This document shows positions 234 through 63,940 of a DNA stretch of 64,000 bases, piece by piece. The notes below the pieces were generated by a model. It had not been told where the DNA came from. It did not search any database and saw nothing but the letters and a program-made list of their open reading frames with translations. Both the position numbers and the translations under genes were made by a program. Positions within the stretch are counted from its first letter, which is position 1; each line of letters starts with the position of its first letter. Origin of the DNA: Frigoribacterium sp. VKM Ac-2836 (GTDB lineage Bacteria; Actinomycetota; Actinomycetes; Actinomycetales; Microbacteriaceae); NCBI RefSeq assembly GCF_013248995.1, contig NZ_JABRPK010000003.1, positions 115,422-179,421 on the forward strand, given 5' to 3'.

Positions 234-273
234 CCGGGTGGGCGGGGTGGCGGGCCGGCACCGCGCCTCCTCG

Positions 274-1656
274 TCAGGACGGCCGCGAGGCCGTGCCCTC
301 GTCGACGGCGAGCTCGGTCGCGGCCTCGTCGCGTGCGGCGTCCGCCGCCCCGTCGCCGTCGTGCTCCAGGCGGTAGTGGAACCGCCCCGCGCCGAGCACG
401 GGCAGCGCGCCGGTCACGGGGTCGGGTTCGCCCACCCGGACCCGACGGACCCGCAGGTGCTGCCCGCGCACGAGCCAGACGATCGCGACGCCGGCCGCCA
501 CGAATCCCGACGCCGCCGCGACGCCGATCGCCCAGCGCGGCCCCGCCACGTTCGCGACCCAGCCGACCACCGGGGCGCCGAGCGGTGTGCCACCGGTGAA
601 CACGGCCATGTAGAGCGCCATGACACGGCCGCGCATGCGGGGTGCGGTGGTCAGCTGGACGGTGGCGTTCGCCGTCGTCATCAGGGTGATCGACGCCAGA
701 CCCACGGTGACGAGGACGGCGGCGAAGCTCCAGTAGGTCGGCATGAGGGCGGCGACGAGGCAGGTCACGCCGAAGGCCACCGCCGCCGTGACGAGCACCC
801 GCCAGCGGGGTTTCTCGCGCCGGGCCGACAGCAGGGCGCCGACCAGCGACCCCACGGCGATGGCGGAGGACAGCAGGCCGAAGCCGCTGGCGTCCACGCC
901 GAACTCGACGCTGGCCATGGTCGAGGTGAAGATGGCGAAGTTCAGGCCGAAGGTGCCGATGACGAAGACCATGACGAACACGACGACGAGGTCGGGCCGT
1001 TCGCGCACGTACCGGAACCCCTCGCGGATCTGCCCCTTGGCCCGCGACACGGCCGGTTTCAGCTCGAGCTGAGCGATCCGGATGAACCTCAGCGACAGCA
1101 GCACGGCGGCGAACGAGCCCGCGTTGATCAGGAACACCCAGCCGGTGCCGATCGTCGCGATGAGCACGCCGGCGACCGCGGGGCCGATCAGCCGGGCACC
1201 GTTGAAGGACGCCGAGTTGAGGCTCACGGCGTTCGTCAGGTGGCCGGGGGGCACGAGCTCGGAGACGAAGCTCTGCCGCACCGGGGCGTCGATCGCGGCC
1301 ACGACGCCGAGCAGCAGCGCGAAGAGGTAGACCATCCAGAGCTGCACGCTGTCGGTCAGCACGAGCACGCCCAGCCCGAGTCCGAGCAGCCCCATGCCCA
1401 GCTGGGTCACCATCAGCAGTCGTCGCCGATCGAACCGGTCGGCGATGAGCCCCGTGATCGGCACCATCAGGATCGGCGGCGCGAACTGCAGCGCCATGGT
1501 GATGCCGAGCGCCGTGGCGTCGTTGTCGGTCAGGTCGGTGAGGACGAGCCAGTCCTGTGCCGTCCGTTGCATCCAGGTGCCGACGTTCGACACGAGGGCG
1601 CCGGCGAACCAGAGCCGGTAGTTGAACAGCGAGAGGCTGCGGAACATCGCGTTCAC
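274..1656 (-). CDS. MFS exporter (MFS_3 type)
   Basis: A 460-residue major facilitator permease, probably a drug or metabolite exporter in the cytoplasmic membrane. The N-terminus (FNYRLWFAGALVSNVGTWMQ, about residues 11-30) is the typical MFS_3 opening. The loop 2-3 signature GLIADRFDRRRL lies at about residues 69-80. The charged C-terminal tail after the last helix is long. The GTG start at 1656 overlaps the stop of the upstream MarR gene as GTGA, so the two are probably translationally coupled. A MarR regulator in front of an efflux pump usually responds to the pump substrate. The substrate cannot be read from the sequence. Confidence 0.85.
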   Translation of the reverse strand: MNAMFRSLSLFNYRLWFAGALVSNVGTWMQRTAQDWLVLTDLTDNDATALGITMALQFAPPILMVPITGLIADRFDRRRLLMVTQLGMGLLGLGLGVLVLTDSVQLWMVYLFALLLGVVAAIDAPVRQSFVSELVPPGHLTNAVSLNSASFNGARLIGPAVAGVLIATIGTGWVFLINAGSFAAVLLSLRFIRIAQLELKPAVSRAKGQIREGFRYVRERPDLVVVFVMVFVIGTFGLNFAIFTSTMASVEFGVDASGFGLLSSAIAVGSLVGALLSARREKPRWRVLVTAAVAFGVTCLVAALMPTYWSFAAVLVTVGLASITLMTTANATVQLTTAPRMRGRVMALYMAVFTGGTPLGAPVVGWVANVAGPRWAIGVAAASGFVAAGVAIVWLVRGQHLRVRRVRVGEPDPVTGALPVLGAGRFHYRLEHDGDGAADAARDEAATELAVDEGTASRPS

Positions 1657-2114
1657 GAGCGGGTCAGCTTGCGGAGGATCTCGGTGGCCTCGGCCAGGGT
1701 GCGACGTTCGTCGGCGGTCAGCGCCGAGAGGCGGGGCACGAGCCACTCGTCACGACGCCGACGCGTCTCGAAGACGAACGCGGCCCCGGCCTCGGTCGTC
1801 TCGAGCAGCACGCGACGCTTGTCGTCGTCGTCGACCGTGCGACGCAGCAGACCGGCCTCGACGAGTTTGCCGACGGTGCGGTTCATCGACGGGGGAGTGA
1901 CGCCCTCGTGCGCCGTCAGCGCCCCGATCGTGAGCGGCTGGTTCTGCACGACGTAGCCGAGGGCGGCCATCTGGGCGTCGCTCACGTCGGCGTCGGCCTT
2001 CTGCTGCCGCAGTCGTCGGGCGAGCCGCAACACGGCACCGCGCACGTCGGTCGCGAGGTGCGCGTGCGGCACGGCCCGGGGGGCGGGCGGGACGGGAGGC
2101 GCGGAGTCGGTCAT
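1653..2114 (-). CDS. MarR-family transcriptional regulator
   Basis: A 153-residue winged-helix regulator. The recognition region reads LTIGALTAHEGVTPPSMNRTV and the wing region DDDDKRRVLLETTEAG, as in MarR proteins. It is the first gene of a two-gene unit with the MFS exporter, with which it overlaps by 4 nt. The start ATG at 2114 is chosen because the dyad TTAG-N5-CTAA (2135-2147) lies just upstream. That dyad is a good candidate autoregulatory operator. By analogy with the family it represses the pair until a ligand binds; the ligand is unknown. Confidence 0.85.
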   Translation of the reverse strand: MTDSAPPVPPAPRAVPHAHLATDVRGAVLRLARRLRQQKADADVSDAQMAALGYVVQNQPLTIGALTAHEGVTPPSMNRTVGKLVEAGLLRRTVDDDDKRRVLLETTEAGAAFVFETRRRRDEWLVPRLSALTADERRTLAEATEILRKLTRS

Positions 2115-2134
2115 CGCCGAGCCACGATACTCGT

Positions 2135-2147
2135 TTAGTTCGGCTAA
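2135..2147. promoter_or_regulatory. Candidate MarR operator (TTAG-N5-CTAA)
   Basis: A short inverted repeat 20 bp upstream of the MarR start codon. Its position suggests autoregulation of the MarR-MFS unit; binding is inferred. Confidence 0.4.
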
Positions 2148-2166
2148 GTAAATGTCTGGGTGCGGG

Positions 2167-2288
2167 GTGTGCACATCGCGACGGTCGGAGGCCGACACGC
2201 CGCTCGTTCCGGAAAGTGAGCGGCGCGCCGCGCTCGACGTGTCGGGATGTGCACGCCTCCGGCCCTCGGCGTGGTCGCGATTTGCACA
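2167..2288. repeat. Large nested imperfect palindrome
   Basis: The outer arms TGTGCACATCGCGAC and GTCGCGATTTGCACA pair across about 90 bp. Inside them CCGACACG pairs with CGTGTCGG, and CGCTC pairs with GAGCG around a TTCCGGA core. The core resembles the palindromes at 5941-5996 and 9103-9144. The element lies in the 323-bp divergent region between the MarR gene and the Bcr-type exporter. Confidence 0.55.
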
Positions 2289-2303
2289 GGCGGCAGGCAA
2301 CGG

Positions 2304-2340
2304 GCGGCAGGCGGCAGGCGGCAGGCGGCAGGCGGCAGGC
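2304..2340. repeat. Tandem 7-mer repeat (GGCAGGC type)
   Basis: About five head-to-tail copies of a GCGGCAG heptamer, with a related unit just upstream at 2289-2299. Such runs are slippage-prone. It lies about 85 bp upstream of the -10 box of the exporter gene. Confidence 0.7.
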
Positions 2341-2424
2341 AACGGGGCGAGGAGGCGCGGGTGCGGCGGAGAGGAGGCGCGGCGGGCGAGGGTCCCGGCG
2401 CGGCAGCGCGGGGAAGCGTGCGCC

Positions 2425-3664: not shown

Positions 3665-3776
3665 CCCCCGGGACGCGACCCGCGCCTCCTGCGTTCGATC
3701 CGGGGCTGGTGCGCGGGGCCCGGTGGTGTCACCCTGGGCTCGACGCCGCCCGGCGCCGCGACCCCAGGAGGACACC

Positions 3777-4196: not shown

Positions 4197-4268
4197 CGCC
4201 GGAACGCGCCGCCGACCGATCAGGAGGCGCGGTGGCGGTCGCGAGGACACCACGCCCCGGTGCCCGGC

Positions 4269-4982
4269 TCAGTCGCGCGCGAGCCGACCGATCACGCTCT
4301 CGTCGAGCCGGGCGAGCAGGTCCGCCACGTCGTCGTAGACCTCCTCGGCCCCGGCGTCGACCAGCTCGGCCCGCGAGAACCCACCGCTGAGCACGCCGAC
4401 GCAGGTGACGCCCGCACGGTGTGCCGCTTCGACGTCCCACACGGCGTCGCCGACCATCACCGCGCGCTCGGCCGGCACGTCCGCCTTCGCGAGGGCGATC
4501 TCGACGATGCCCGGGTCGGGTTTGGCGGTCTCGACGTCCTCGCTCGAGGTGACGGCCCAGAGGGCGTCCTCGACGTCGAGCAGCCCGCGCAGCGCCGCCA
4601 GCTCGTCCTCGGGCGCACTCGTGGCGAGCACGACGCCGTGCCCGCGTCGTGCGAGCTCGGCCAGCAGATCGGTGGCCCCCTCGAACACGTGCAGGTCGCC
4701 CTCGTCGCCCAGGTGCTCGGAGTAGTGACGAGAGTGGGCGTCCTTCGCGTCGTCCAGGAGGCGCGCGGCGACGTCCTTCCCGACCAGACCCTCGATCAGC
4801 AGTGACGAGTCCTTGCCGATCGACCGGTGGATGCGCCAGCTGTCGACCGGGTGGCCGAGGTCGGTGAAGGCCCGCGACCAAGCGTCGACGTGGGCGAAGT
4901 TCGAGTCGACCAGGGTGCCGTCGATGTCGAAGAGGACGGCGGTGGCAAGGGAAGAGGGGTCGTCGGAGGCGCGGGAGGTCAT
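4269..4982 (-). CDS. HAD-family hydrolase (phosphatase)
   Basis: A 237-residue haloacid-dehalogenase-fold phosphatase with a helical cap. The nucleophile motif DIDGTLVDSN starts at about residue 19, the threonine/serine motif is LATSAPEDEL, and the lysine is in TAKPDPG. The acidic motif is GDAVWDVEAA. The cap sequence resembles beta-phosphoglucomutase and phosphoglycolate-phosphatase relatives; the substrate is not evident. CAGGCT (plus-strand 4989-4994) lies 6 nt before the ATG, which suggests a leaderless mRNA. A second HAD protein of the same general kind is encoded at 51368. Confidence 0.85.
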   Translation of the reverse strand: MTSRASDDPSSLATAVLFDIDGTLVDSNFAHVDAWSRAFTDLGHPVDSWRIHRSIGKDSSLLIEGLVGKDVAARLLDDAKDAHSRHYSEHLGDEGDLHVFEGATDLLAELARRGHGVVLATSAPEDELAALRGLLDVEDALWAVTSSEDVETAKPDPGIVEIALAKADVPAERAVMVGDAVWDVEAAHRAGVTCVGVLSGGFSRAELVDAGAEEVYDDVADLLARLDESVIGRLARD

Positions 4983-5905: not shown

Positions 5906-5940
5906 CCCGCGCCTCCTCGGCCCCGCGCCCTCAGCCCGCC

Positions 5941-6084: not shown

Positions 6085-6762
6085 GTGCGCGTGCTCGTCG
6101 TCGAGGACCAGGCGGCGCTGGCCGAGGGCCTGAGGCTCGGGCTCGAGGCCGAGGGCATCGCGGTCGACGTGGCGGCCACCGGAACCGACGGCCTCTGGCG
6201 CACCCGCGAGGGCCGCTACGACGTGGTCGTCCTCGACATCATGCTGCCGGGCCTCAGCGGCTACGCCGTCTGCCGGGCCATGCGCGAGGGCGGCGACTGG
6301 ACGCCCGTCATCATGCTGACCGCCAAGGACGGCGAGTGGGACCAGGTCGAGGCCCTCGACACCGGGGCCGACGACTACCTGACCAAGCCGTTCTCGTTCG
6401 CCGTGCTGCTGGCCCGGCTGCGCGCCCTCGTCCGCCGCGGCGCCCGCGAACGACCCGTCGTGCTCGAGGCAGGCGACCTGCGCGTCGACCCGGCTTCGCG
6501 CAGCGTCCACCGCGGCGACGTCGCGGTCGAACTCACCAGCCGCGAGTTCGCGGTGCTCGAGTTCCTCATGCGGCACGCCGGCAGCGTCGTCACCAAGCGC
6601 GAGGTGCTCGACGGGGTCTGGAACGACGACTTCGAGGGCGACCCCAACATCGTCGAGGTCTACGTGCGACACCTGCGCAACAAGGTGGACCGGCCGTTCG
6701 GCCGCGAGGCCATCGTCACGCTGCGCGGAGCGGGCTACCGTCTGGAGGCGCGGGGTGGCTGA
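6085..6762 (+). CDS. OmpR-family response regulator
   Basis: A 225-residue regulator. The receiver domain spans about residues 1-115, with the acidic pair in VVEDQ, phospho-acceptor Asp51 (VVLDIMLPG) and the lysine in LTKPFSF at about 101. A winged-helix DNA-binding domain follows (about 125-222), ending in IVTLRGAGYRLE. The GTG start has a GGGAGG site 4 nt upstream. It overlaps the kinase gene by 8 nt, so the two are cotranslated. CTTCAG repeats upstream suggest autoregulation. Confidence 0.92.
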   Translation: MRVLVVEDQAALAEGLRLGLEAEGIAVDVAATGTDGLWRTREGRYDVVVLDIMLPGLSGYAVCRAMREGGDWTPVIMLTAKDGEWDQVEALDTGADDYLTKPFSFAVLLARLRALVRRGARERPVVLEAGDLRVDPASRSVHRGDVAVELTSREFAVLEFLMRHAGSVVTKREVLDGVWNDDFEGDPNIVEVYVRHLRNKVDRPFGREAIVTLRGAGYRLEARGG

Positions 6763-8335
6763 GCGCGCCCCTCGCGCCCCTCGCGCCCCGACAACCGGGT
6801 CCGGGTCGGCCAAGGGTGCCGGGTCGGGCCGGCCCCGACGGGCGTCGCTGCGGTCCCGCATCACCGTGGCCGCCGTGCTCGCGGTGGCACTCACGCTGGG
6901 GGTGTTCACGCTCGTCTTCGCGCTCGTGCAGCAGGCCGTGCTGGCCGACGCCCCGCGCCAGGCCGCCTCGGCCGACGTGGACCGGGCGGTGTCGGCCCTG
7001 GCCTTCGGTTCGACTCCCGACGTCGCCGTCGCGGGCGAGGCGGACGGTGCCCTGGTCGTGGTGACCGACGCGTCGGGGAGGGTGCTCGCCTCGGGCGGTG
7101 ACGACGACCTCGTCGGCCTCGCCGCGTCGATCGCCTCGTCCGACTCGGGTGACCGCGTGTCGCTCGACGATGACGAGTTCGTCGTCGAACGGCAGGACGT
7201 CGGGGTCGAGAGCACCGCGACGCCGACGCCGACCGCGTCGGCCTCGATCGCGACCCCCACGCCCGCGGCGTCGGAAGGGGACGACGACGACTCCGACGAC
7301 GACTCGGGAGACGACTTCTCGCCCTCCGAGGAGGCCACGTCCGTGCCCCGCGACGTGGTCTCGACCGAGTACGGCGTCGTCGCCGCGCGCTCCCTCGACG
7401 AGGCGAGCGCCGCCTCCTCCGCCAGTCTCGTCACGCTCGGCATCGCGATCCCGGTCGCGTTGCTGGTGCTGGGGGTGACCACCTGGCTCGTCGTGGGTCG
7501 TGCCCTGCGGCCGGTCGAGTCGATGCGCCGCCAGGTCGACTCGGTCACGGCGCAGAGCCTCTCGCGCCGGCTGCCCGACCCGGGCGGCGGTGACGAGATC
7601 GCCCGCCTCGCCCGCACGCTGAACGGCATGCTCGACCGGCTCGACGCGTCCGCAACGGCCCAGCGGCGCTTCGTCGGCGACGCCTCGCACGAGCTCAAGA
7701 CGCCTCTCGCCACGATCCGGCAGCACGCCGAGGTCGCCCTGCTGCACCCCGGCAGCATCGACGGTGCGGCCCTGGCAGGCACCGTCCTCGGCGAGGAGGC
7801 GCGGCTGACGGCGCTCGTCCAGGGCCTGCTGGTCCTCGCCCGGGCGGACGAGGGGGCCCTCGGGGTGACACGGCGCCCGGTCGACCTCGACGACCTCGTG
7901 GTGGCCGAGACCGCCCGTCTGCGCGGCCTCGCACGCCCCGACGGTCACGCACCGTTGGCCGTCGACGCCACGGCCGTCGGTCCGGCCCGCGTCGACGGCG
8001 ACGAGGGACTGCTCGGCCAGGTCGTCCGCAACCTCGTGGCGAACGCGGCCCGTCACGCCGAGGGCCGCGTCGCCGTCGCCCTCGCCGAGCGCGACGGAGG
8101 CGTCGAGCTCACCGTCGACGACGACGGGGCCGGCGTCGCCGAGGCCGACCGCGAGCGCGTGTTCGACCGGTTCGTGCGACTCGACGAGGCCCGCGCCCGC
8201 GAGGCGGGCGGCAGCGGCCTGGGGCTCGCCATCGTGCGCGAGATCGTCCGCGTCCACGGAGGCGCGGTGTCGGTCGGTGCCTCACCCCTCGGTGGTGCCC
8301 GGTTCGTGGTGACGCTGCCCGCCGGCCGGGCGTGA
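6755..8335 (+). CDS. Two-component sensor histidine kinase with Asp-rich sensor loop
   Basis: A 526-residue membrane kinase. Transmembrane segments lie at about residues 36-60 and 224-248, with a HAMP linker after the second. The dimerisation domain carries His312 in GDASHELKTPLATIRQH. The ATPase domain has VVRNLVANAARHA, DDDGAGVAEADR and GSGLGLAIVREI. The extracellular loop includes a Thr/Pro/Ser stretch and an acidic run of Asp and Ser at about residues 174-190. That run could bind cations and may be the sensed feature. It is coupled to the response regulator and lies upstream of an equally Asp-rich secreted protein. Confidence 0.92.
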   Translation: MAERAPRAPRAPTTGSGSAKGAGSGRPRRASLRSRITVAAVLAVALTLGVFTLVFALVQQAVLADAPRQAASADVDRAVSALAFGSTPDVAVAGEADGALVVVTDASGRVLASGGDDDLVGLAASIASSDSGDRVSLDDDEFVVERQDVGVESTATPTPTASASIATPTPAASEGDDDDSDDDSGDDFSPSEEATSVPRDVVSTEYGVVAARSLDEASAASSASLVTLGIAIPVALLVLGVTTWLVVGRALRPVESMRRQVDSVTAQSLSRRLPDPGGGDEIARLARTLNGMLDRLDASATAQRRFVGDASHELKTPLATIRQHAEVALLHPGSIDGAALAGTVLGEEARLTALVQGLLVLARADEGALGVTRRPVDLDDLVVAETARLRGLARPDGHAPLAVDATAVGPARVDGDEGLLGQVVRNLVANAARHAEGRVAVALAERDGGVELTVDDDGAGVAEADRERVFDRFVRLDEARAREAGGSGLGLAIVREIVRVHGGAVSVGASPLGGARFVVTLPAGRA

Positions 8336-8369
8336 CGTGACCGGGCCGACCCGCGCCTCCTGAACGGAT

Positions 8370-11121: not shown

Positions 11122-11203
11122 GCACGCGACGGGCGCCGACGAGGCGACCCGCGCCTCCTGCACGGCGCCCGCCTCGGCCGGGCCGGGCAGCGCCGCGCCG
11201 GGG

Positions 11204-16559: not shown

Positions 16560-16581
16560 CGGGCGATGCGGGAGGCGCGGG

Positions 16582-18270: not shown

Positions 18271-19224
18271 ATGCCGACCCGCGCCTCCTCGACGACCTAC
18301 AGCTACCTCGGGCCCGCGGGCACCTTCACCGAGGCGGCGCTCAAGCAGGTGCCCGAGGCCGTCGGCGCCGACTGGAAGAGCGTCAACAACGTCGGCGAGG
18401 CCCTGGCCGACGTCGTCTCGGGCGTCAGCACCGCCGCCATGATCGCCATCGAGAACAGCGTCGAAGGCGGGGTCAGCGCCACGCAGGACGCCCTCGCGAC
18501 CGTGCCCGGTCTGCGCATCGTCGGCGAGTACCTCGTGCGGGTCAACTTCGTGCTCGTCGCCCGGCCGGGAACCCGCATCGAGGAGGTGCGGGTCGTCAAC
18601 GCGCACCCGGTCGCCTACGCGCAGACCCACCGTTGGCTCGAGCGGAACCTGCCCGGCCACGGGCACCTGCCGGCGTCCTCGAACGTTGCCGCCGCCGCGT
18701 CGCTGCTCGAGGCGGGCGGGGCCGGGGGCTCCGCGGACGCCGCCGTCGCGCCTCCCGGGATCACCGACCACCACGATCTCGAGGTGCTGGCCCGCGACAT
18801 CGGCGACAACGACCAGGCCGTCACACGCTTCGTGCTGGTCAGTCGCACGGTGCCCGTGCCGCCCGCGACCGGAGCGGACAAGACGAGCCTGATCGTCGAG
18901 TTGCCGACCGACGGCTCCGGGGCCCTGGTCGACATGCTCGAGCAGTTCGCCACCCGCGGCATCAACCTCAGCCTGATCCAGTCACGGCCGATCGGCGACG
19001 CCCTCGGCCGCTACCGGTTCGTGATCGACCTCGAGGGGCACGTGCTCGACGAACGCGTCGCCGACGCCCTGCTCGGTCTGAAACGGTTCAGCCCGAACGT
19101 GATGTTCCTCGGGTCGTACCCCCGCGCCGACGGAGCCTCGGCCGAGGTCTCGTCGCGCCACGACGACGAGGCGTTCGTCGACGCCCGCGACTGGTTGCGC
19201 GGATTGATCAGCGGCCTCGGCTGA
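18271..19224 (+). CDS. pheA: Prephenate dehydratase
   Basis: A 317-residue enzyme converting prephenate to phenylpyruvate for phenylalanine synthesis. The catalytic domain (about residues 8-195) begins YSYLGPAGTFTEAAL and includes MIAIENSVEGGVSATQDAL and NDQAVTRFVLVSR. The ACT regulatory domain (about 205-285) has GALVDMLEQFATRGINLSLIQSRP, the site of phenylalanine feedback control. There is no chorismate mutase domain, as is usual in actinobacteria. Codons 3-7 are a copy of the CCGCGCCTCC repeat, giving an odd TRASST lead-in. Its stop abuts the stop of the convergent kinase gene. Confidence 0.95.
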   Translation: MPTRASSTTYSYLGPAGTFTEAALKQVPEAVGADWKSVNNVGEALADVVSGVSTAAMIAIENSVEGGVSATQDALATVPGLRIVGEYLVRVNFVLVARPGTRIEEVRVVNAHPVAYAQTHRWLERNLPGHGHLPASSNVAAAASLLEAGGAGGSADAAVAPPGITDHHDLEVLARDIGDNDQAVTRFVLVSRTVPVPPATGADKTSLIVELPTDGSGALVDMLEQFATRGINLSLIQSRPIGDALGRYRFVIDLEGHVLDERVADALLGLKRFSPNVMFLGSYPRADGASAEVSSRHDDEAFVDARDWLRGLISGLG

Positions 19225-46855: not shown

Positions 46856-48913
46856 ATGACCGACTCCCGTTCCCTGCCCTACCCCCTCGGCGTGACCCCC
46901 CTGCCCGGCGGCGGCGCCCACGTCGCGGTGTACTCCGAGACCGCCGACCGCGTCTGGTTCTGCCTGTTCGACGACGGGGCCGACGGCGGCACCGAGCGCC
47001 GCTTCGAGCTGACGAACCGTACCGGCCACGTCTTCCACACCGTGGTCGAGGAGGCGCGGGTCGGCTCCCGCTACGGCCTGCGGGTCGCGGGCCCCTGGGA
47101 CCCGGCGAACGGCCTCCGCCACAACGAGCACAAGCTGCTGCTCGACCCCTACGCCACGGCCCTCGACGGCCGGTTCGACTGGGGCCAGGCCGTCTTCGGC
47201 CACGACATGGACGAGCCCGACCAGCGCGACGACACCGACTCGGCCGCGGCCATGCCCCGCAACGTCGTCGCCGACCGCGACTTCGACTGGGGTGACGACC
47301 AGCGCCCGCTGACGCCGCTGGAGGACACCGTCGTCTACGAGGTGCACGTCAAGGGCTTCACGCAGACCCACCCCGACGTGCCGGAGGACATCCGCGGCAC
47401 CTACGCGGGCATGGGTCACCCCGCCGCGATCAAGCACTTCACCGACCTGGGCGTCACCGCCGTCGAGCTGCTGCCGACGCACCAGTTCGTGCAGGACAGC
47501 CACCTCGAGGAGAAGGGCCTTCGCAACTACTGGGGCTACAACTCCATCGGCTTCTTCGCCCCCCACGACGAGTACGCGTCGAAGGCGGCGGGCACGAAGG
47601 GCGGTCAGGTCGCCGAGTTCAAGCAGATGGTCAAGGACCTCCATGCCGCCGGCCTCGAGGTGTGGATGGACGTCGTCTACAACCACACGGCCGAGGGCAA
47701 CCACATGGGCCCGACCATCTCGTTCAAGGGCATCGACAACGCCGCCTACTACCGTCTGGTCGAGGGTGACGAGGGCAACTACTTCGACACCACCGGCACG
47801 GGCAACAGCCTGAACGTCAGCCACCCCGCGGCCCTCGGGCTGATCATGGACAGCCTGCGTTACTGGGTCACCGAGATGCACGTCGACGGCTTCCGCTTCG
47901 ACCTCGCCACGACGCTCACGCGCCAGGGCGGCGAGGCGAGCGAGCACAGTGCGTTCCTCACGCTGATCCACCAGGACCCCGTGCTGCAGAGCGTCAAGAT
48001 GATCGCCGAGCCGTGGGACACCGCCGGGTACCAGGTCGGGGGCTTCCCGGCCGACTGGTCCGAGTGGAACGGCAAGTTCCGCGACGACGTCCGTGAGTTC
48101 TGGAACGGCGAGCCCGGCGTGCTCTCGACCTTCTCCGACCGCGTGCTCGGCAGCCCGGACGTCTACGAGGCCGACCGTCGCTCGCCCCTGTCGAGCGTCA
48201 ACTTCGTCACCGCACACGACGGCTTCACCCTCGCGGACCTGACCAGCTACGCCGAGAAGCACAACGAGGAGAACGGCGAGGACAGCCAGGACGGCGAGAG
48301 CGACAACAAGTCCTTCAACGGTGGTGCCGAGGGGCCGACCGACGACCCCGCGGTCAACGAGTACCGCGACCGTCAGCGCCGCAACTTCCTCGGTACGTTG
48401 CTGATCAGCGCCGGGGTGCCGATGATCCTCGGCGGCGACGAGATCGCCCGCAGCCAGGGAGGCAACAACAACGCCTACTGCCAGGACAGCGAGATCTCGT
48501 GGTTCGACTGGGAGCGAGCCGACCGCGACCTCCTCGCCTTCACGACCGAGCTGATCACGCTGCGTCGCGAGAACCCGGCCCTGCGCCCCGACTGGTTCCG
48601 CTACGCTCCCGAGGTCGAGAGCGACGACCACGTGCAGGTGCGCCGTGCCGACGACCACTCGTTCTCGACCGGCGACTGGCAGCAGGGCGAGAACAAGGCG
48701 ATCACCTTCGTCCTGACGCACAAGGACGCCGACGCGTTCGCCTACCTCGTCAACGGCTCGACCGCGGTCGTCGAGTTCAACGTGCCCGACGCGCCCCACG
48801 GCGAGTGGGAGCTCGCCGCGTCCAGCGACCCCGGCCAGCAGGTCGAGGGGGCCGTCACGACGCTGCTCGTGCGCGACGCGAGCTTCACGCTGCTGCGGAG
48901 CCGCGCCTCCTAG
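46856..48913 (+). CDS. glgX: Glycogen debranching enzyme
   Basis: A 685-residue GH13 debranching enzyme that removes alpha-1,6 branches from glycogen after phosphorylase action. The N-terminal CBM48-like domain is about residues 1-140. The barrel has DVVYNHTAEGNHMGP, VDGFRFDLATTLTR with the nucleophile aspartate, KMIAEPWDTAGYQVGGFP with the proton-donor glutamate, and NFVTAHDGFTLADL with the third acid. The ATG is preceded by GGGAGG, and TACTGC lies 7 nt before it. The last codons RAS and the TAG stop are a copy of the CCGCGCCTCC repeat. Together with pgm it serves glycogen turnover. Confidence 0.95.
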   Translation: MTDSRSLPYPLGVTPLPGGGAHVAVYSETADRVWFCLFDDGADGGTERRFELTNRTGHVFHTVVEEARVGSRYGLRVAGPWDPANGLRHNEHKLLLDPYATALDGRFDWGQAVFGHDMDEPDQRDDTDSAAAMPRNVVADRDFDWGDDQRPLTPLEDTVVYEVHVKGFTQTHPDVPEDIRGTYAGMGHPAAIKHFTDLGVTAVELLPTHQFVQDSHLEEKGLRNYWGYNSIGFFAPHDEYASKAAGTKGGQVAEFKQMVKDLHAAGLEVWMDVVYNHTAEGNHMGPTISFKGIDNAAYYRLVEGDEGNYFDTTGTGNSLNVSHPAALGLIMDSLRYWVTEMHVDGFRFDLATTLTRQGGEASEHSAFLTLIHQDPVLQSVKMIAEPWDTAGYQVGGFPADWSEWNGKFRDDVREFWNGEPGVLSTFSDRVLGSPDVYEADRRSPLSSVNFVTAHDGFTLADLTSYAEKHNEENGEDSQDGESDNKSFNGGAEGPTDDPAVNEYRDRQRRNFLGTLLISAGVPMILGGDEIARSQGGNNNAYCQDSEISWFDWERADRDLLAFTTELITLRRENPALRPDWFRYAPEVESDDHVQVRRADDHSFSTGDWQQGENKAITFVLTHKDADAFAYLVNGSTAVVEFNVPDAPHGEWELAASSDPGQQVEGAVTTLLVRDASFTLLRSRAS

Positions 48914-48930: not shown

Positions 48931-48971
48931 GGAGGCGCGGTGCCCGTCCCCGAGGACGGCACCGCGCCTCC
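48931..48971 (+). terminator. Terminator built from two inverted copies of the genome repeat
   Basis: GGAGGCGCGGTGCCCGTCC pairs with GGACGGCACCGCGCCTCC around a CCGA loop, with one bulge. It begins 18 bp after the glgX stop. Confidence 0.75.
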
Positions 48972-49625: not shown

Positions 49626-50558
49626 TCAGTCGCGGCGGGCCCAGAGGGCCTGCACGAGGGACGTCGTCAACTCGTGGTCGATAGCGAACGGCCGACCGTC
49701 GAGGTCTGACACGGGGGCGATCTGGCGGCCGCTCGAGAACAGCCACAGGGCGTCCGCCTCGTGCACCTGCTCGATCGTCACGAGCTCGTACGCCGTCTCG
49801 TGTCCGAGGTCGGCCAAGGCGTCGAACACGGCCGCCTGCGTGGTGCCCTCGAGGATGCCCTGATCGGTGCGGGGGGTCACGAAGCGGTCGCCGAAGCGGG
49901 CGACGAGCGAGGCCGACGGCCCCTCGAGGGCGAACCCGTCGCTGCTGACGAAGAGGACGTCGTCGGCACCCCGGCGGGCTGCCTCGCGCAGCACGCTCTT
50001 GTTCACGGCGTACGAGAGGGTCTTCGCACCCTGCAGCAGCCACGGCGAGGTCTGCGCGACGTCGTGTCGGTAGCCGCGGTCGAGCGACACCACGCGGATG
50101 CCGTCGCGTCGCTCGGCGGCGTGGTCCTCGTAGACCTCGGTGCGCGCCCACGCGGTCGGCTCGCTGTCGGGCACGCCCTCGAGGCCGCGCGTCACGATCA
50201 GCTTGGTCAACGCGAACGGGACGGGTTCGTGGGCGGCGGCCGAGGCGAGCACGGCCTCGCGGATCAGGTCGAGGTCGAGGTCGGGCAGATCGAGCAGGGC
50301 CGCGGACCGGGCCAGTCGGCGCAGGTGCGGTTCGAGCGCCTGCACCGCTCCGTCCACGACGCCGAACGCCTCGAAGATGCCGTCGCCGCGCGTCACGCCC
50401 AGGTCGACGACGTGCACGGTCGGCCCGGTCGCGTCGACGACGTGCCACCCGGGGCCGTCGCCCCGGGCGCCGGCCCGGGCCCGGTCGATGACCACGAGCA
50501 CGGGGGCAGGAGGCGCGGTGTCGGTCGTGGGGGAGGCGTCGGCAGCGAGGTCGGTCAC
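49626..50558 (-). CDS. Class IV aminotransferase / 4-amino-4-deoxychorismate lyase-like
   Basis: A 310-residue PLP enzyme of fold type IV. The Arg-rich VTRGDGIFEAFGVVDG start, the lysine in LLQGAKTLSYAVNKSVLREA and the phosphate-binding VFDALADLGHE and EGTTQAAVF regions are seen. Such proteins act as PabC, completing 4-aminobenzoate for folate, or as branched-chain or D-amino-acid aminotransferases. The start EAFG pattern favours PabC-like. The GTG at 50558 lies 7 nt after TACGGT (plus-strand 50566-50571). Confidence 0.82.
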   Translation of the reverse strand: MTDLAADASPTTDTAPPAPVLVVIDRARAGARGDGPGWHVVDATGPTVHVVDLGVTRGDGIFEAFGVVDGAVQALEPHLRRLARSAALLDLPDLDLDLIREAVLASAAAHEPVPFALTKLIVTRGLEGVPDSEPTAWARTEVYEDHAAERRDGIRVVSLDRGYRHDVAQTSPWLLQGAKTLSYAVNKSVLREAARRGADDVLFVSSDGFALEGPSASLVARFGDRFVTPRTDQGILEGTTQAAVFDALADLGHETAYELVTIEQVHEADALWLFSSGRQIAPVSDLDGRPFAIDHELTTSLVQALWARRD

Positions 50559-51367: not shown

Positions 51368-52021
51368 ATGACGACCCTCACCTGCCGCGCGATCGTTTTC
51401 GACATGGACGGCACGCTCGTCGACTCGACGGCCGTGGTCGAACGCATCTGGGGCGACTTCGCCGCCGAACACGAGCTCGACGTCGACGACCTGTTGGCGT
51501 TCGCGCACGGACGGCAGACCCACGACACCGTCACGCGGTTCCTGCCCGGGTTGCCCGAGGTCGAGGCCCGGGCGCTCACCGACGGCCTGCAGGCCGTCGA
51601 GGCCGGCACGGGCGGGGGCACCGTCGAGATCCCGGGCGCGGCCGCGTTCCTCGAGGGTCTCCCGACGGATCGTGTGGCCCTCGTGACGAGTGCGAACCAC
51701 GACCTGGCGCGGTCACGCATGGCCGAGGCGGGCGTGACCTGGCCGGCCGTCGTGCTGGCGTCCGAGCAGGTGGCCGTGGGCAAGCCCGCCCCGGACGGCT
51801 ATCTGTTGGCTGCCCGGCTGCTGGGCGTCGCCCCCGACGAGGTCGTGGTCTTCGAGGACGCGGCGGCGGGGCTCGAGGCGGCCCGCGCCTCCGGAGCCTC
51901 GGTCGTCGTCGTGGGCGACCACGACGGACCGGCGGCCGACGGCCTTCCGCGCATCACCGGCTACGAGGGCGTGTCGGTGACCGTCCGCGACGACGGGACC
52001 CTCGAGCTCACGCTGCCGTAG
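51368..52021 (+). CDS. HAD-family phosphatase (phosphosugar type)
   Basis: A 217-residue HAD hydrolase with a small helical cap. The nucleophile motif is IVFDMDGTLVDSTAVV at about residues 9-24. VALVTSANHDLARSRM, VAVGKPAPDGYLLAARLL and VVFEDAAAGLEAARASG provide motifs II to IV. The sequence is nearest to the DOG-type 2-deoxyglucose-6-phosphate or glycerol-3-phosphate phosphatases. The substrate cannot be named. It is divergent from the acidic protein gene with only 58 bp between starts. Confidence 0.87.
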   Translation: MTTLTCRAIVFDMDGTLVDSTAVVERIWGDFAAEHELDVDDLLAFAHGRQTHDTVTRFLPGLPEVEARALTDGLQAVEAGTGGGTVEIPGAAAFLEGLPTDRVALVTSANHDLARSRMAEAGVTWPAVVLASEQVAVGKPAPDGYLLAARLLGVAPDEVVVFEDAAAGLEAARASGASVVVVGDHDGPAADGLPRITGYEGVSVTVRDDGTLELTLP

Positions 52022-53131: not shown

Positions 53132-54004
53132 CTACGCGCGGCCCCTGGGCGCGGGTCCGGCCGCGGCGGCGATGCGGGCGACGGCGGCCTCGTCCAGCAC
53201 GAACACCTCGTCGCCGTCCCGCCGGTCGGGCACGCGCACCGGAGTCGAGCGCACCGACCCCGTGGCCGACACCTCGACGACGGCGAAGCCCGAGCCGCGC
53301 ACGGCTCGCTCGGTGCCGACGGCCGCCAGCACGTCCGTGTCGTTCGCCACCCCGGGCGCGACCACCACGGGCACGCCCGCCAGGTGCCCGACCATGTGGT
53401 GGTGGTAGTGCCCGCCGAGGACGACGCGGACGTCCGACGCCTCGACGGCCGCGGCCAGCGCCTCCGGGTCCTGCAGGGCGAGCGACTCGTGCAGGGTCGT
53501 CGGCGCGGTGATCGGCGGGTGGTGGAGCACGAGCACGGAGCCCCGTTCGGCGGGCGTCGCCAGCTCGTCGCGCAGCCAGGCGAGCTGTTCGGGCCGCAGC
53601 AGACCGTAACCGGCCCCGGGCACCGACGTGTCGAGCCCGATCACCCGCCACCCGTCCACGTCGCGCACGAGGTCGAGGGGGCGGTCGGGGTCGCCGCCGA
53701 GCACCTCGGCGAAGCCCGCCCGCACGTCGTGGTTGCCCGGCACGAGGACGACCTCGGCGCCGGCCGCTCGCGCCCACGCGTCGGTGCGGTCGCGGAGGTG
53801 GCGGTAGGAGGCGCGGCTCCCGTCGTCCGACAGGTCACCCGACCCCACCAGCAGGCGCACCCCCTCGACGCGAGCGGCCTCGGCCAGGACGAGGTCGAGG
53901 GCCTCGCTCGTGTCGACGACTCCCTGGTGCAGGGCCCCGTCGGCGAGCAGGTGCGCGTCGCTGAGATGGACGATGCGGAGGGCTCCGGGGGGCAGGGCGT
54001 GCAT
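53132..54004 (-). CDS. Metallophosphoesterase (cyclic-nucleotide phosphodiesterase-like)
   Basis: A 290-residue calcineurin-like phosphoesterase. The metal ligands are spread over VHLSDAHLL, VGSGDLSDDGS, VPGNHDVRAGF, VLVLHHPPI and VLGGHYHHHMVGHL. This pattern matches CpdA/Icc-type phosphodiesterases. The substrate could be cAMP, a nucleotide or a phospholipid part. TAGCGT (plus-strand 54011-54016) lies 6 nt before the ATG. A repeat copy falls inside it at 53807-53816. Confidence 0.88.
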   Translation of the reverse strand: MHALPPGALRIVHLSDAHLLADGALHQGVVDTSEALDLVLAEAARVEGVRLLVGSGDLSDDGSRASYRHLRDRTDAWARAAGAEVVLVPGNHDVRAGFAEVLGGDPDRPLDLVRDVDGWRVIGLDTSVPGAGYGLLRPEQLAWLRDELATPAERGSVLVLHHPPITAPTTLHESLALQDPEALAAAVEASDVRVVLGGHYHHHMVGHLAGVPVVVAPGVANDTDVLAAVGTERAVRGSGFAVVEVSATGSVRSTPVRVPDRRDGDEVFVLDEAAVARIAAAAGPAPRGRA

Positions 54005-56451: not shown

Positions 56452-56534
56452 GCCGTCACCCTGCCACACGGCGGCACGAGCCGAGGGCAGGAGGCGCGGG
56501 TCGCGTCACGACATCGCGTCCCGCCCCGGGGGCG

Positions 56535-57413
56535 TCACGTGCGGAGGGCACGGGGCGCATCCGCGTCGGCCCGCGCCACGGGTGCGGGGCCGAGCCGCTG
56601 CTCGGGGCGGGCCGGCGAGATCAGTGTCGCGCGCCTCCCGCGAGCGTCGGGTCCGGTGTCGGCGCCGAGCACCTGCAGGCGTCCCGGTGTGCGGTCGCGC
56701 AGCGCCGCCGTCCAGGCGCAGACCAGGGCGTCGAGCAGGTCCTCGCGGTGCTTGTAGGCCCGGTCGACGAGCGGCGACGGTTCGTCGACGAGCATCGCCG
56801 ACACGGGGTGCGAGCCGAGCCGCAGCGGCACCTCGGCCCCGGCCAGGCCGGCCAACCGGCGGAGCAGCTCGTCGCAGGCCGCCGCCCGCGCCTCGCGCCG
56901 CGCCTCCTTCGGCAGGGTGAGGTCGGGTCGCTTGTAGCGCGGACGCTTGTCGTCGTAGCCGAGTTCGGCCATGCCGACGAGTGTCGTGTACGGGTAGCAC
57001 TCGAAATGTCCGACCGCCTCGGCGGGCAGCGGCACGACACCGTCGTCGTAGATGCCGCCGGCACGCTCGAGCCGCTCGCCGAGGGTGCGTCCGCCGAGCC
57101 AGGGCAGGGAGGCGCTGCTGGCGTTGGCCGACACGTGCCAGCGACCGTAGGCGCGCGCCACGAGCCGCTCGCTCGCCCGCATCCCCGTCGCGTTCGGCAC
57201 GAGCACGGGGGCGTCCACCGCCACGACCGAGCCGGGCGTCGACCAGCGCAGGACCCAGGCCTCGACCTCGTCGACCCCGCGTGCCCAGCCGGCGTCGAGC
57301 ACCGTGCCGTCGGCGTCGATCACGGCGAGGCCGGTCTCGTTCGCCGGGCGGGCGGGCGTGGAGTCGCGCCAGGCGAGGTCGACGCCGAGATAGCGGGGTC
57401 GGGGTGTGCTCAC
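56535..57413 (-). CDS. DUF429 protein (RNase H-like fold)
   Basis: A 292-residue DUF429 protein. The first strand YLGVDLAWRD and the second acidic segment VVAVDAPVLVPN lie in positions typical of RNase H-like folds. Further conserved blocks are ECYPYTTLVGM, RYKRPDLTLPKEARREAR and YKHREDLLDALVCAWTA. The function is unknown. TACGGT lies 6 nt before the GTG. It is divergent from the VIT1 fusion with only 33 bp between start codons. Confidence 0.83.
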   Translation of the reverse strand: MSTPRPRYLGVDLAWRDSTPARPANETGLAVIDADGTVLDAGWARGVDEVEAWVLRWSTPGSVVAVDAPVLVPNATGMRASERLVARAYGRWHVSANASSASLPWLGGRTLGERLERAGGIYDDGVVPLPAEAVGHFECYPYTTLVGMAELGYDDKRPRYKRPDLTLPKEARREARAAACDELLRRLAGLAGAEVPLRLGSHPVSAMLVDEPSPLVDRAYKHREDLLDALVCAWTAALRDRTPGRLQVLGADTGPDARGRRATLISPARPEQRLGPAPVARADADAPRALRT

Positions 57414-59560: not shown

Positions 59561-60886
59561 TCACAGCGCGGGTGCAGGTGGCCGGTCGACCGAGGGGGTC
59601 GTGCGCTCCATCTGACGCCAGGCCCCGCCGGTGAGCGGGGCGAGCGTGACGGTCGTGTAGACCGCGGCGACGATGCCGAACGCGAGGGCCAGTCCGATCG
59701 TGTCGGCGGCGACGCCGCCGAGCAGGGCACCGAACGGGATGCCGGCCCAGGCTCCGGCGTTGACCAGCCCGAAGACCCGCCCGCGGAGGTGCTCGGGGGT
59801 GCGTTCGAGTTGCACGGTGCCGAGGATGGGGTTGAGGGCTCCGGCGGCCAGTCCCGAGAGCGCGGTCGCGGCGACCAGCGCCGGCAGCGGTGCCCCGAGG
59901 GCGAAGGCGAGGCTCGACGGGCCGCCGGCGAGCGTGAAGCAGATGACGAAGGTGACCCGCCGCGGCACTCGGTGGGCGACGAAGCCGAAGACCACGTTGC
60001 CGGCCAGGGCGCAGCCGCCCATGGTGGCGACGAGCAGTCCCAAGGCGGCCGCGCCTCCCAGTCGATCGTTCGCGTAGAGGGGCAGCAGCGTGGACCCGCG
60101 AGCGGCGTCGAGCAGGTTCGTGACCAGCACGAGCGCGACGATCAGCCGCATCAGCGGGTCGCGCAGGACGAACCGGGCGCCCTCGGCCAGGTCGGCCCGG
60201 TAGGAGGCGCGGGCGGGCTCGGCATCGTCGCTCGGCTCTGTCGGGTGGTCGTCTCTCGAATTCTGTGATCCGGTACGTACCGGATCGGGCGCGGGGACGA
60301 AGGCCCGGGTGAGGCTCGCCGAGACGGCGAAGGTGGCCGCGTTGACGAACAGCGAGGCGATCGGGCCGACGGCGGCGACGAGCAGCCCGGCGATCGAGGC
60401 TCCGATCATCTTGGCGAAGCGTTCGGACCCGTCGAGCAGGCCGACGCTGCGTTCGATCCGCACCCCGGCGCGCTCGGTCAGCCCGGGCAGCATCACCCGG
60501 CGGGCCGTCTGCCCCGGGGTGTCGAGCAGCCCGCCGACGAAGACGAGCGAGAGCAGGGCCCAGAACGGCAGTCCGACGGTCAGGGCGAGCACGGGCATCG
60601 CGAGGACGGAGGCGCCGCTCACCAGGTCGGCCACGATCGCGGCCCGGCGGTGCCCGACCCGGTCGACGACGACGCCGCCGAGCGGTCCGCCGATGATCAC
60701 CGGTGCCGTCGCGAACGCGGCCGCGAGGCCGACCTCCGCTCCTGATCCGCCGAGGCCCAGGACGTAGAAGGGCACGGCGAAGGCCGTCACGACGTTGCCG
60801 GTCTGCGAGATCGCGTGGGCGGCGACCAGCGCGGACAGGGCGACCCGCGCCTCCTCGGGTCGTCTGATCTCGCCCATGGTCCGCAC
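59561..60886 (-). CDS. MFS transporter in an operon with an ArsR regulator
   Basis: A 441-residue MFS permease. The loop motif GGVVVDRVGHRRAAIVADLV is visible, and TERAGVRIERSVGLLDGSERFAK is the MFS_3-like amphipathic segment. A long charged loop (about residues 208-238) separates the two halves. It begins immediately after the stop of the ArsR gene (TGAGTG). It is most likely an efflux pump under that regulator. The cargo is unknown. Confidence 0.85.
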   Translation of the reverse strand: MRTMGEIRRPEEARVALSALVAAHAISQTGNVVTAFAVPFYVLGLGGSGAEVGLAAAFATAPVIIGGPLGGVVVDRVGHRRAAIVADLVSGASVLAMPVLALTVGLPFWALLSLVFVGGLLDTPGQTARRVMLPGLTERAGVRIERSVGLLDGSERFAKMIGASIAGLLVAAVGPIASLFVNAATFAVSASLTRAFVPAPDPVRTGSQNSRDDHPTEPSDDAEPARASYRADLAEGARFVLRDPLMRLIVALVLVTNLLDAARGSTLLPLYANDRLGGAAALGLLVATMGGCALAGNVVFGFVAHRVPRRVTFVICFTLAGGPSSLAFALGAPLPALVAATALSGLAAGALNPILGTVQLERTPEHLRGRVFGLVNAGAWAGIPFGALLGGVAADTIGLALAFGIVAAVYTTVTLAPLTGGAWRQMERTTPSVDRPPAPAL

Positions 60887-61948: not shown

Positions 61949-61958
61949 CGTGACCCGA

Positions 61959-61998
61959 GGAGGCGCGGGTCGGCCTCGATTCGCGCCCCGCGCCTCCC
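61959..61998 (+). terminator. Terminator made of two inverted repeat copies
   Basis: GGAGGCGCGGG pairs with CCCGCGCCTCC across an 18-nt spacer, 11 bp after the stop of the acidic protein gene and upstream of tRNA-Arg. Confidence 0.7.
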
Positions 61999-62036
61999 TC
62001 GTGTAGTGTTTCCTCTGGCCAATCGGCCCGAGAAAC

Positions 62037-62109
62037 GCGCCTGTAGCTCAACGGATAGAGCATCTGACTACGGATCAGAAGGTTGGGGGTTCGAGTCCCT
62101 CCAGGCGCA
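62037..62109 (+). tRNA. tRNA-Arg (anticodon ACG)
   Basis: A 73-nt class I tRNA without encoded CCA. GCGCCTG pairs with CAGGCGC. The anticodon stem CTGAC/ (G)ATCAG frames CTACGGA, with anticodon ACG, and the T arm is GGGGGTTCGAGTCCCTC. Confidence 0.95.
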
Positions 62110-62120
62110 CGCAACTCAGC

Positions 62121-63052: not shown

Positions 63053-63059
63053 GCCCCTC

Positions 63060-63065
63060 AGCCTA
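63060..63065 (-). promoter_or_regulatory. -10 box TAGGCT, leaderless LuxR start
   Basis: On the minus strand TAGGCT ends 7 nt before the ATG at 63052. Confidence 0.45.
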
Positions 63066-63073
63066 GGTGTGTG

Positions 63074-63107
63074 CCTACCCGTCATCATCGTCCCTACCCG
63101 AACGGGT
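63074..63107. promoter_or_regulatory. CCTACCCG repeats and ACCCG-AA-CGGGT dyad
   Basis: CCTACCCG occurs at 63074-63081 and 63093-63100. The second copy is part of the dyad at 63096-63107. They lie between the divergent LuxR-type gene and hxlA and are candidate sites for that regulator. Confidence 0.45.
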
Positions 63108-63230
63108 GGGTGGGACGCCTCCGTCGAGGAGCTGCCCTCTCAGCATCGGCGGACCATGATCGAGGGCAACGGGATCGACGACGTATCCAGAGGCCCGATC
63201 GGGCCCCGTCGCCCCCACGAGGAGCACCAC

Positions 63231-63854
63231 ATGAAGCTGCAGTTCGCCATGGACACCCTGACCATCGACGCCGCCCTCGAGCTGGCCGCCGCCGCCGCGC
63301 CGAGCGTCGACATCATCGAGCTCGGCACGCCGCTGATCAAGGCCGAGGGTTTCCGCGCCATCACCGCCGTCAAAGAGGCGCACCCCGACAAGATCGTCTT
63401 CGCCGACCTCAAGACGATGGACGCCGGTGAGCTCGAGGCGGGCGAGGCGTTCAAGGCCGGCGCCGACCTGGTGACGGTCCTCGGCGTCGCCGGCGACAGC
63501 ACCATCGCCGGGGCGGTCAAGGCCGCCAAGGCGCACGGCAAGGGAATCGTCGTCGACCTGATCGGCGTCGGCGACAAGGCCGCCCGTGCCAAGGAGGTCG
63601 TCGCCCTCGGCGCCGAGTTCGTCGAGATGCACGCCGGTCTCGACGAGCAGGCCGAAGAGGGCTTCACGTTCGAGACGCTGCTCGAGGCCGGCAAGGCCAG
63701 CGGCGTGCCGTTCTCCGTCGCAGGCGGCGTCAAGGCCGCCACCGTCGGCTCGGTGCAGGACGCCGGAGCAGACGTCGCCGTCGCCGGTGCCGCGATCTAC
63801 TCGGCCGACGACGTCGCCGCTGCCGCCGCCGAGATCCGCGCCGCCATCAAGTAG
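63231..63854 (+). CDS. hxlA: 3-hexulose-6-phosphate synthase
   Basis: A 207-residue TIM-barrel enzyme of the orotidine decarboxylase suprafamily. It condenses formaldehyde with ribulose 5-phosphate, or runs in reverse to supply pentoses. The N-terminal LQFAMDTLTIDAALELAA and IIELGTPLIKAEG are typical. The catalytic Asp and Lys are in IVFADLKTMDAGELEA, and GVGDKAARAKEV and FSVAGGVKAATV follow. The partner isomerase hxlB is not in the window. A GAGGAG site lies before the ATG. A repeat-pair terminator follows. Confidence 0.92.
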   Translation: MKLQFAMDTLTIDAALELAAAAAPSVDIIELGTPLIKAEGFRAITAVKEAHPDKIVFADLKTMDAGELEAGEAFKAGADLVTVLGVAGDSTIAGAVKAAKAHGKGIVVDLIGVGDKAARAKEVVALGAEFVEMHAGLDEQAEEGFTFETLLEAGKASGVPFSVAGGVKAATVGSVQDAGADVAVAGAAIYSADDVAAAAAEIRAAIK

Positions 63855-63901
63855 CACCGACGTCGAACCGCGCTCCGGCCGAGGCTGGAGCGCTGACGCG
63901 C

Positions 63902-63940
63902 AGGAGGCGCGGTGTCGGTCGGACCGGCACCGCGCCTCCT
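63902..63940. terminator. Terminator made of two inverted repeat copies after hxlA
   Basis: AGGAGGCGCGGTG pairs with CACCGCGCCTCCT, and CGGTC with GACCG inside. It lies between hxlA and the convergent partial gene. Confidence 0.75.

Follow-up and report, generated by a model that had tools for sequence, protein, structure and literature searches.

A 64-kb stretch of DNA (the window) from a genome of 3,273,901 bases in 10 contigs (G000) was analyzed. Among its genes are pgm, glgX, two kinase genes and genes for tRNA-Ser and tRNA-Arg; between and within the genes the 10-mer GGAGGCGCGG is repeated on both strands. This dispersed word, which a preliminary description of the window had likened to a DNA uptake signal, is the subject of the present study. 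The pgm product of the window shares 93% identity with its counterpart in Frigoribacterium sp. CFBP 13712, pgm identity among 16 genomes of this genus being 90-99%, and the CFBP 13712 locus contains 22 copies of the core of the word in 21.6 kb. On these sequence grounds, the host genome is therefore assigned to Frigoribacterium (Microbacteriaceae, Actinomycetota). Gene positions were taken from a home-made codon-usage gene caller alone.

A dispersed word in the window and in the genome

The window contained 39 exact copies of GGAGGCGCGG, 22 on the plus and 17 on the minus strand (Table 1); about 33 had been counted in the preliminary description. The over-representation claimed there was confirmed: 100 dinucleotide shuffles of the window gave a mean of 1.74 copies and a maximum of 5, an order-3 Markov model predicted 0.73, and the word ranked first among the 10-mers of the window. 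In a sample of 464 kb, consisting of the window and 400 kb of contig C1, this rank was held jointly by GGAGGCGCGG and AGGAGGCGCG. The longer GACCCGCGCCTCCT, described as common to many copies, had 11 occurrences in the window when the two strands were combined, and both at 5903-5916 and at the end of pgm the extended copy indeed included the stop codon TGA.

The preliminary description had let its case depend on enrichment beyond the window. The whole genome harbored 684 + 670 = 1,354 copies of GGAGGCGCGG, one per 2.4 kb, whereas the same word read backwards, which served as the genome-wide control, occurred 22 + 30 = 52 times. This reversed control is crude, as illustrated by the word GGATGCCG, which in pooled Microbacterium loci showed an excess over the Markov model itself (261 copies, 40.8 expected). 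In 599 kb, the 11-mer AGGAGGCGCGG was seen 191 times as compared to 1.07 times expected from an order-3 Markov model. The 9-base core, GGAGGCGCG, was present in 301 copies in the 464 kb sample; it was preceded by A in 61% and followed by G in 71% of the copies, and a weak preference trailed over about seven further bases behind the core, both in coding and in intergenic copies. The 15 possible single changes within GGAGG yielded a total of 11 copies in the 599 kb with about 23 expected, whereas single changes at the next five bases yielded 129 with about 13 expected. Such a pattern is expected of a recognition sequence with a strict core and graded edges.

In the 464 kb sample, 101 of the 301 core copies were intergenic, in 12.2% of the sequence, corresponding to a density 3.6 times that found in genes. 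Density was highest in gaps between convergent genes (3.5/kb), followed by tandem (1.9/kb) and divergent gaps (0.8/kb). The remaining 200 copies fell within called genes and occupied each of the six combinations of frame and strand. Clustering just after stop codons, as reported earlier, was only partly borne out: 18 of the 39 window copies were intergenic, but 21 lay inside called genes; in the 464 kb, the first 0-9 bases past a stop held 16 copies with CCTCC in the sense direction and four with GGAGG. Coding copies exceeded the codon-usage expectation 3.9- to 66-fold in the six frames, one of which held two copies only; the 66-fold excess occurred in the frame that requires the rare codon CCT, and 16-fold was reached with GGA. 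The reversed word was depleted overall in the coding frames, with eight copies seen and about 37 expected.

Strand distribution was determined for each 50 kb of 400 kb and in 27 stretches of about 20 kb, corresponding to about a fifth of the genome. The two strands were about equally represented in each 50 kb, and they were about balanced over the 27 stretches (chi2 = 19.7, 27 degrees of freedom), one of which showed a distribution of 0/9. Within this sample, there is therefore no replication polarity.

Inward-facing inverted pairs with a distance of 12-50 bp were found 26 times among 409 copies, with 2.6 expected for uniform placement. Outward pairs (11, 2.7 expected) and direct pairs (16, 5.4 expected) were also in excess; copies therefore cluster generally, inward pairs most of all. 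The three inverted pairs proposed for the window (48931/48962, 61959/61988 and 63903/63930) are present, and strong hairpins are predicted for all of them (Table 1). They were not among the matches of a terminator scan for short loops and T tails.

Table 1. Positions of GGAGGCGCGG in the window, singly and as inverted pairs
Feature	Position	Strand	Location and remarks
GGAGGCGCGG copy	261..270	-	intergenic, adjoins end of MFS-type gene (274-1656, -)
GGAGGCGCGG copy	2095..2104	+	intergenic
GGAGGCGCGG copy	2351..2360	+	intergenic
GGAGGCGCGG copy	2373..2382	+	intergenic; direct pair with 2351
GGAGGCGCGG copy	3680..3689	-	intergenic, 16 bases past stop
GGAGGCGCGG copy	4223..4232	+	gap between convergent genes
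GGAGGCGCGG copy	4965..4974	+	within gene 4269-4982
GGAGGCGCGG copy	5907..5916	-	at stop codon; TGA 5903-5905 belongs to extended copy
GGAGGCGCGG copy	6744..6753	+	within gene 6085-6762
GGAGGCGCGG copy	7795..7804	+	within histidine kinase gene 6866-8335
GGAGGCGCGG copy	8258..8267	+	within histidine kinase gene 6866-8335
GGAGGCGCGG copy	8351..8360	-	intergenic, 16 bases past stop
GGAGGCGCGG copy	11149..11158	-	gap between convergent genes
GGAGGCGCGG copy	16571..16580	+	at stop of pgm (16582-18201, -); stop belongs to extended copy
GGAGGCGCGG copy	18279..18288	-	within gene 18271-19224
GGAGGCGCGG copy	24753..24762	+	intergenic
GGAGGCGCGG copy	24910..24919	-	within gene 24771-25976 (LytR-CpsA-Psr family)
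GGAGGCGCGG copy	30127..30136	+	within gene 30109-31257
GGAGGCGCGG copy	31308..31317	-	within gene 31254-33380
GGAGGCGCGG copy	31538..31547	+	within gene 31254-33380
GGAGGCGCGG copy	31616..31625	+	within gene 31254-33380
GGAGGCGCGG copy	32523..32532	-	within gene 31254-33380
GGAGGCGCGG copy	41726..41735	+	within KdpD-like kinase gene 40143-42653
GGAGGCGCGG copy	47050..47059	+	within glgX (46856-48913)
GGAGGCGCGG copy	48901..48910	-	final codons of glgX
inverted GGAGGCGCGG pair	48931..48971	48931-48940 +, 48962-48971 -	past glgX; predicted fold of 48925-48985: -43.7 kcal/mol, z -4.67
GGAGGCGCGG copy	50509..50518	+	within gene 49626-50558
GGAGGCGCGG copy	51883..51892	-	within gene 51368-52021
GGAGGCGCGG copy	53807..53816	+	within gene 53132-54004
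GGAGGCGCGG copy	56490..56499	+	intergenic
GGAGGCGCGG copy	56898..56907	-	within gene 56535-57413
GGAGGCGCGG copy	60049..60058	-	within gene 59561-60877
GGAGGCGCGG copy	60203..60212	+	within gene 59561-60877
GGAGGCGCGG copy	60845..60854	-	within gene 59561-60877
inverted GGAGGCGCGG pair	61959..61997	61959-61968 +, 61988-61997 -	between stop and tRNA-Arg gene (62037-62110); predicted fold of 61952-62012: -32.1 kcal/mol, z -3.21
inverted GGAGGCGCGG pair	63903..63939	63903-63912 +, 63930-63939 -	predicted fold of 63896-63956: -42.7 kcal/mol, z -5.34

Two other repeats were observed. A dispersed palindrome of more than 50 bases ending in TGAGCGGCACGTCGTGACATCTCG occurs in near-identical copies in the window (about 5940-5997 and 9096-9152) and on contig C1 near 40.8, 165.6 and 224.0 kb; it is possibly a repetitive extragenic palindromic (REP)-like or a terminator element. 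A 52-base tandem array on C1 (about 29811-29984) contains four copies of the palindrome GATCCGGTACGTACCGGATC, which is present once in the window (60268-60285).

Conservation and taxonomic spread

Conservation was analyzed by comparison of one 199 kb region with one close relative, G006, which is 90% identical. Among 126 aligned core copies, 106 were identical, 12 showed one change, five showed two or three changes and three were gapped. Identity amounted to 93-98% in the nine core columns and, over 25 flanking columns per side, to 80-93%. Within the window, no change was seen in 25 of the 29 coding and 11 of the 15 intergenic copies; of control 9-mers of like composition, 39% (coding) and 31% (intergenic) were unchanged.

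Segments of at least 1.5 kb that could not be aligned to G006 contained 0.38 copies per kb as compared to 0.95 per kb elsewhere (raw densities, P = 5e-5). Ten of the 19 copies in these long segments fall in the first 14 kb, an unaligned stretch which is perhaps a mere synteny break. An unaligned region of 15.5 kb, with gene products resembling, by eye, a polysaccharide cluster, contained a single copy.

In the window, a segment of 2.9 kb (about 26607-29458; GC content 0.60) just past the tRNA-Ser gene (26462-26552) is also unaligned to G006 and contains no copy. No Pfam match was obtained for the two open reading frames tried in this segment, which is likely an acquired island.

The spread of the word was examined in 16 genomes of the genus, 150 genomes of the family Microbacteriaceae (85 genera) and 248 genomes of the order. 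All 16 genus genomes carried GGAGGCGCGG, in 842 to 1,725 copies (reversed control 41-148). In the family survey, numbers clearly above control were found for three genomes of Frigoribacterium and two of genus g32 (688 and 673 copies; controls 107 and 118). One genome of genus g55 was weakly above control (399 and 142) and the other one barely (133 and 98); all remaining family genomes contained at most 208 copies each. In the order survey, no genome besides G000 exceeded 126 copies, and a few were slightly above control (e.g. 68 and 41).

Genus g32 uses a dialect with another front, CTGGAGGCGCG, of which one of the two genomes drawn contained 531 copies (control 32) and the other 574 (control 30); three Frigoribacterium genomes had 25, 38 and 18 copies and the g55 genomes 73 and 19. 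In 180 kb of g32 sequence, 27 copies of the form TGGAGGCGCG were intergenic and six were coding, numbers that do not allow a frame analysis. Five Curtobacterium loci, two of them from C. pusillum, contained eight copies of CTGGAGGCGCG with 0.3 expected, and a sixth one, from C. ammoniigenes, contained none. Since the five named loci carry the CTGGAGGCGCG dialect, g32 is, judged from sequence, probably Curtobacterium. Other over-represented words, GGCGCAGGA and GCAGGATCC, were seen in loci L225-L229 (g5) and L259-L261 (g47); they are possibly further dialects.

Pilus and competence genes and a second dispersed word

The preliminary description had asked for pilus and com genes, and these were found. 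Contig C3 carries at about 483-497 kb (L174 and L175) an operon encoding PilB, a PilT-like ATPase, PilC, a type IV pilin, two minor pilins, the prepilin peptidase PilD and PilM; it also encodes a large PilX-like protein, the counterpart of which in G010 has no Pfam match. Small genes in the positions of pilN and pilO as well as the neighboring genes rpoC and rpsL were recognized by eye. On C1, comEA, with SLBB and helix-hairpin-helix domains, adjoins comEC. ComEA was looked at in G000, and ComEC was found in all 16 genus genomes.

PilM was present in all genomes drawn of Frigoribacterium (3/3) and of g32 and g55 (4/4). Hence all word-bearing genomes drawn were PilM-positive, a result that chance would allow as well, the word being found in two to three genera. 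Minor pilins were compared in 13 operons: a long type was seen in seven (g1, g32, g5, g48), they were shorter in G069, G138, G085 and G098, and those of G077 and G021 were not resolved by the gene caller. Two markers were tried across the family. A link between word and pilus was not established, pilus genes being widespread, and the long minor pilin failed on the 150 genomes as a marker of word-bearing genera.

A second dispersed word, GGATGCSG, exceeded its reversed control up to about 20-fold in Microbacteriaceae (e.g. L265-L267 and Microbacterium loci L071-L100). When PilM-positive genomes larger than 2.5 Mb were compared, Frigoribacterium and g5 showed the smallest excess (1.3- to 1.7-fold), followed by g47 (2.2-fold) and g32 (2.5-fold); the excess was also low in some PilM-negative genera (g51, g45). 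The strands were balanced (chi2 = 43.8, 48 degrees of freedom), i.e. GGATGCSG is unpolarized. The word GGATGCCG was above expectation in five of six frames in G077. It showed neither intergenic enrichment (40 of 260 copies in 12.6% of the sequence) nor enrichment of inward pairs (two among 261 copies). An idea derived from 18 sets, namely that GGATGC words track the pilus, was rejected: two of seven PilM-negative genomes (G063 and G091) showed a clear and others a slight Markov excess, and the PilM-negative genomes G120, G074 and G057 were rich by the reversed control. GGATGCSG may be either a signal of another kind or an older dialect of the family.

Interpretation of the word

Local strand equality, coding copies in all frames and the controls together leave the reading of a DNA-level word kept by recognition, and several other explanations can be weighed against these data. 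The word is GC-rich, as expected for an artefact of composition or codon usage in a genome of 72% GC; given 1,354 copies as compared to 52 of the reversed word, 191 copies of AGGAGGCGCGG where 1.07 are expected, and an enrichment that peaks in the frame needing a rare codon, such an artefact is hardly conceivable. A Chi-like recombination signal or a strand-polarity motif, suggested earlier as alternatives, the latter here considered as a KOPS-like signal for FtsK, would likewise be short, non-palindromic and very frequent. Signals of this type are oriented along the replichore, however, and the equality of strands on the 50 kb and 20 kb scales contradicts this suggestion and makes it very improbable, unless the recombination enzyme of this organism acted on both orientations. 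Even less credible is a spread by transposition of mobile palindromes of the REP or miniature inverted-repeat transposable element (MITE) type: inverted pairs and many copies would suit them, but two thirds of the copies (200/301) lie in genes and in all frames, the shared signal fades within about eight bases of the core, and losses with respect to G006 are mostly substitutions, gaps affecting three of the 126 aligned copies.

A transcription terminator or an RNA element of the 3' untranslated region, with CCUCCU or GGAGG in the RNA, would account for the strong hairpins past genes and for the wealth of copies in convergent gaps. The 200 core copies within called genes, on both strands and in six frames, contradict such an element, including the anti-Shine-Dalgarno variant proposed in the preliminary description; furthermore, a lone copy gives no hairpin and most copies are unpaired (26 pairs among 409). 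We regard this explanation as improbable. A cytoplasmic DNA-binding protein which organizes or marks the chromosome deserves more attention. Such a protein would require sites at intervals of a few kb, irrespective of orientation, and these would be kept by selection for reasons unrelated to uptake. The non-polar, dispersed and conserved distribution on both strands fits such a protein, as does the presence of the comparably dispersed GGATGCSG in much of the family, PilM-negative genomes included. Inward pairs, accumulation at convergent gene ends and low density in unshared segments are traits of uptake words which a nucleoid protein does not need; moreover, we know of no nucleoid protein with more than 1,000 strict 9-base sites. 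A chromosomal role is thus possible, albeit rather unlikely.

Taken together, the density of the word, its hairpin pairs and dialect, its scarcity in unshared segments and the presence of pilus and com genes match what is described, in the parts of the literature consulted, for the DNA uptake sequences (DUS) and uptake signal sequences (USS) of other bacteria. The word is therefore probably, though not certainly, a DUS- or USS-like uptake sequence of Frigoribacterium, which would have evolved independently of the Neisseria DUS and the Pasteurellaceae USS. A surface-exposed component of the uptake apparatus, e.g. a minor pilin or ComEA, may bind AGGAGGCGCGG on double-stranded DNA outside the cell, the type IV pilus would retract via PilT, and ComEA and ComEC would import one strand for recombination. 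The accumulation of the word is proposed to result from a preferential uptake of word-carrying DNA, by which copies born by point mutation would spread and decayed copies would be restored. The word would build up where genes tolerate it, namely in gaps, in tolerant codons and in hairpin stems at gene ends, and newly acquired DNA would be thinner in it.

The uptake reading of the preliminary description is partly supported, namely by density, occurrence on both strands, hairpin pairs, conservation, dialect and the pilus and com genes; however, no receptor stood out, and a pilus marker is present in many relatives without the word. A number of observations weigh against it. PilM was detected in 77 of the 150 family genomes (76 over the cut-off; 49 of 85 genera), most of which are without the word; therefore, the word cannot be predicted from the machinery. 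Matches covering most of the long Frigoribacterium minor pilin were obtained in about 36 of the 150 genomes, far more than contain the word; with so many wordless genera among them, no receptor in the manner of the minor pilins ComP or PpdA is singled out. Caution is mainly due to GGATGCSG, which is in excess in a large part of the family and also in genomes lacking PilM, e.g. with 5,236 copies as compared to 272 reversed in G120, while GGATGCCG was above expectation in six of six frames in pooled Microbacterium loci of overlapping gene content. If both words served one function, this function therefore could not need this pilus. Few decayed copies were found within GGAGG, where a balance of mutation and drive might leave more. 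Compared to four species about 82% identical, excess conservation was modest, with 22-42% of coding copies kept as compared to 18-20%, and intergenic numbers were tiny (0/3 to 2/7 kept). The low density in unaligned segments reflects raw values, and the unaligned islands are lower in GC; when all unaligned bases were counted, the contrast was smaller (0.62 and 0.88 per kb). Finally, L059, a metagenome-assembled genome named Frigoribacterium, contained no GGAGGCGC in 11 kb and GGATGCCG eight times; its pgm is 80% identical, and it is probably misnamed and outside this genus.

HIP1 of cyanobacteria is a dispersed, over-represented palindromic octamer of debated function. The Frigoribacterium word is likewise dispersed and over-represented; unlike HIP1, it is not its own reverse complement, and it favors gaps between genes and inverted pairs. 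Actinomycetota have no outer membrane. As far as the consulted parts of the respective papers go, self-recognition uptake words have been reported from two families of Gram-negative bacteria, Neisseriaceae and Pasteurellaceae (PMC3630211; PMC12616744; PMC1939737). The Neisseriaceae DUS are words of 10-12 bases with more than 1,000 copies per genome, intergenic preference, terminator-tied inverted pairs and dialects that differ by single bases between related genera, and they act together with a type IV pilus and ComEC (PMC3630211, available in part). The Frigoribacterium word resembles them in copy number, intergenic preference, inverted pairs, dialects, type IV pilus and ComEC, but it is unrelated in sequence, belongs to a host of the Actinomycetota and is known from genomes alone; a counterpart of ComP was not identified in the Frigoribacterium genome. 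The accessible part of an account of the Pasteurellaceae USS describes a short strict core with flank preference, two family dialects and a minor pilin proposed as receptor (PMC12616744). Strict core, further flank preference and dialects are shared by the Frigoribacterium word, whereas sequence and phylum are unrelated and the flank signal is weak.

Actinobacterial transformation with comEA/comEC and Flp/Tad pili has been described for Micrococcus luteus, and no uptake word is mentioned in the part of that account consulted (PMC6370729). Frigoribacterium likewise has comEA/comEC and pilus genes; its operon, however, is of the PilB-PilT-PilM type IV kind. No uptake word in Actinobacteria was reported in the titles and abstract openings searched, which cover part of the printed literature, and a search with the letters of the word gave nothing related among the matches listed.

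We also considered, as a tentative and rather doubtful extension, that uptake words specific to each lineage may serve Microbacteriaceae as labels of their own DNA, AGGAGGCGCGG in Frigoribacterium, CTGGAGGCGCG in another genus and GGATGCSG in most others. All of these would derive from one signal of the GGA-GC type and would form a monoderm uptake language parallel to that of Neisseriaceae, possibly independent of the PilM pilus. If the word of Frigoribacterium is an uptake sequence, it would add a third case of independent origin, from a phylum that lacks an outer membrane, and would indicate that uptake words evolve repeatedly; furthermore, the role of the pilus would become separable from that of the outer membrane. 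Frigoribacterium, with natural dialects nearby, would then be a genus suited to the question of whether such words arise by selection for kin recognition or as a by-product of a biased receptor.

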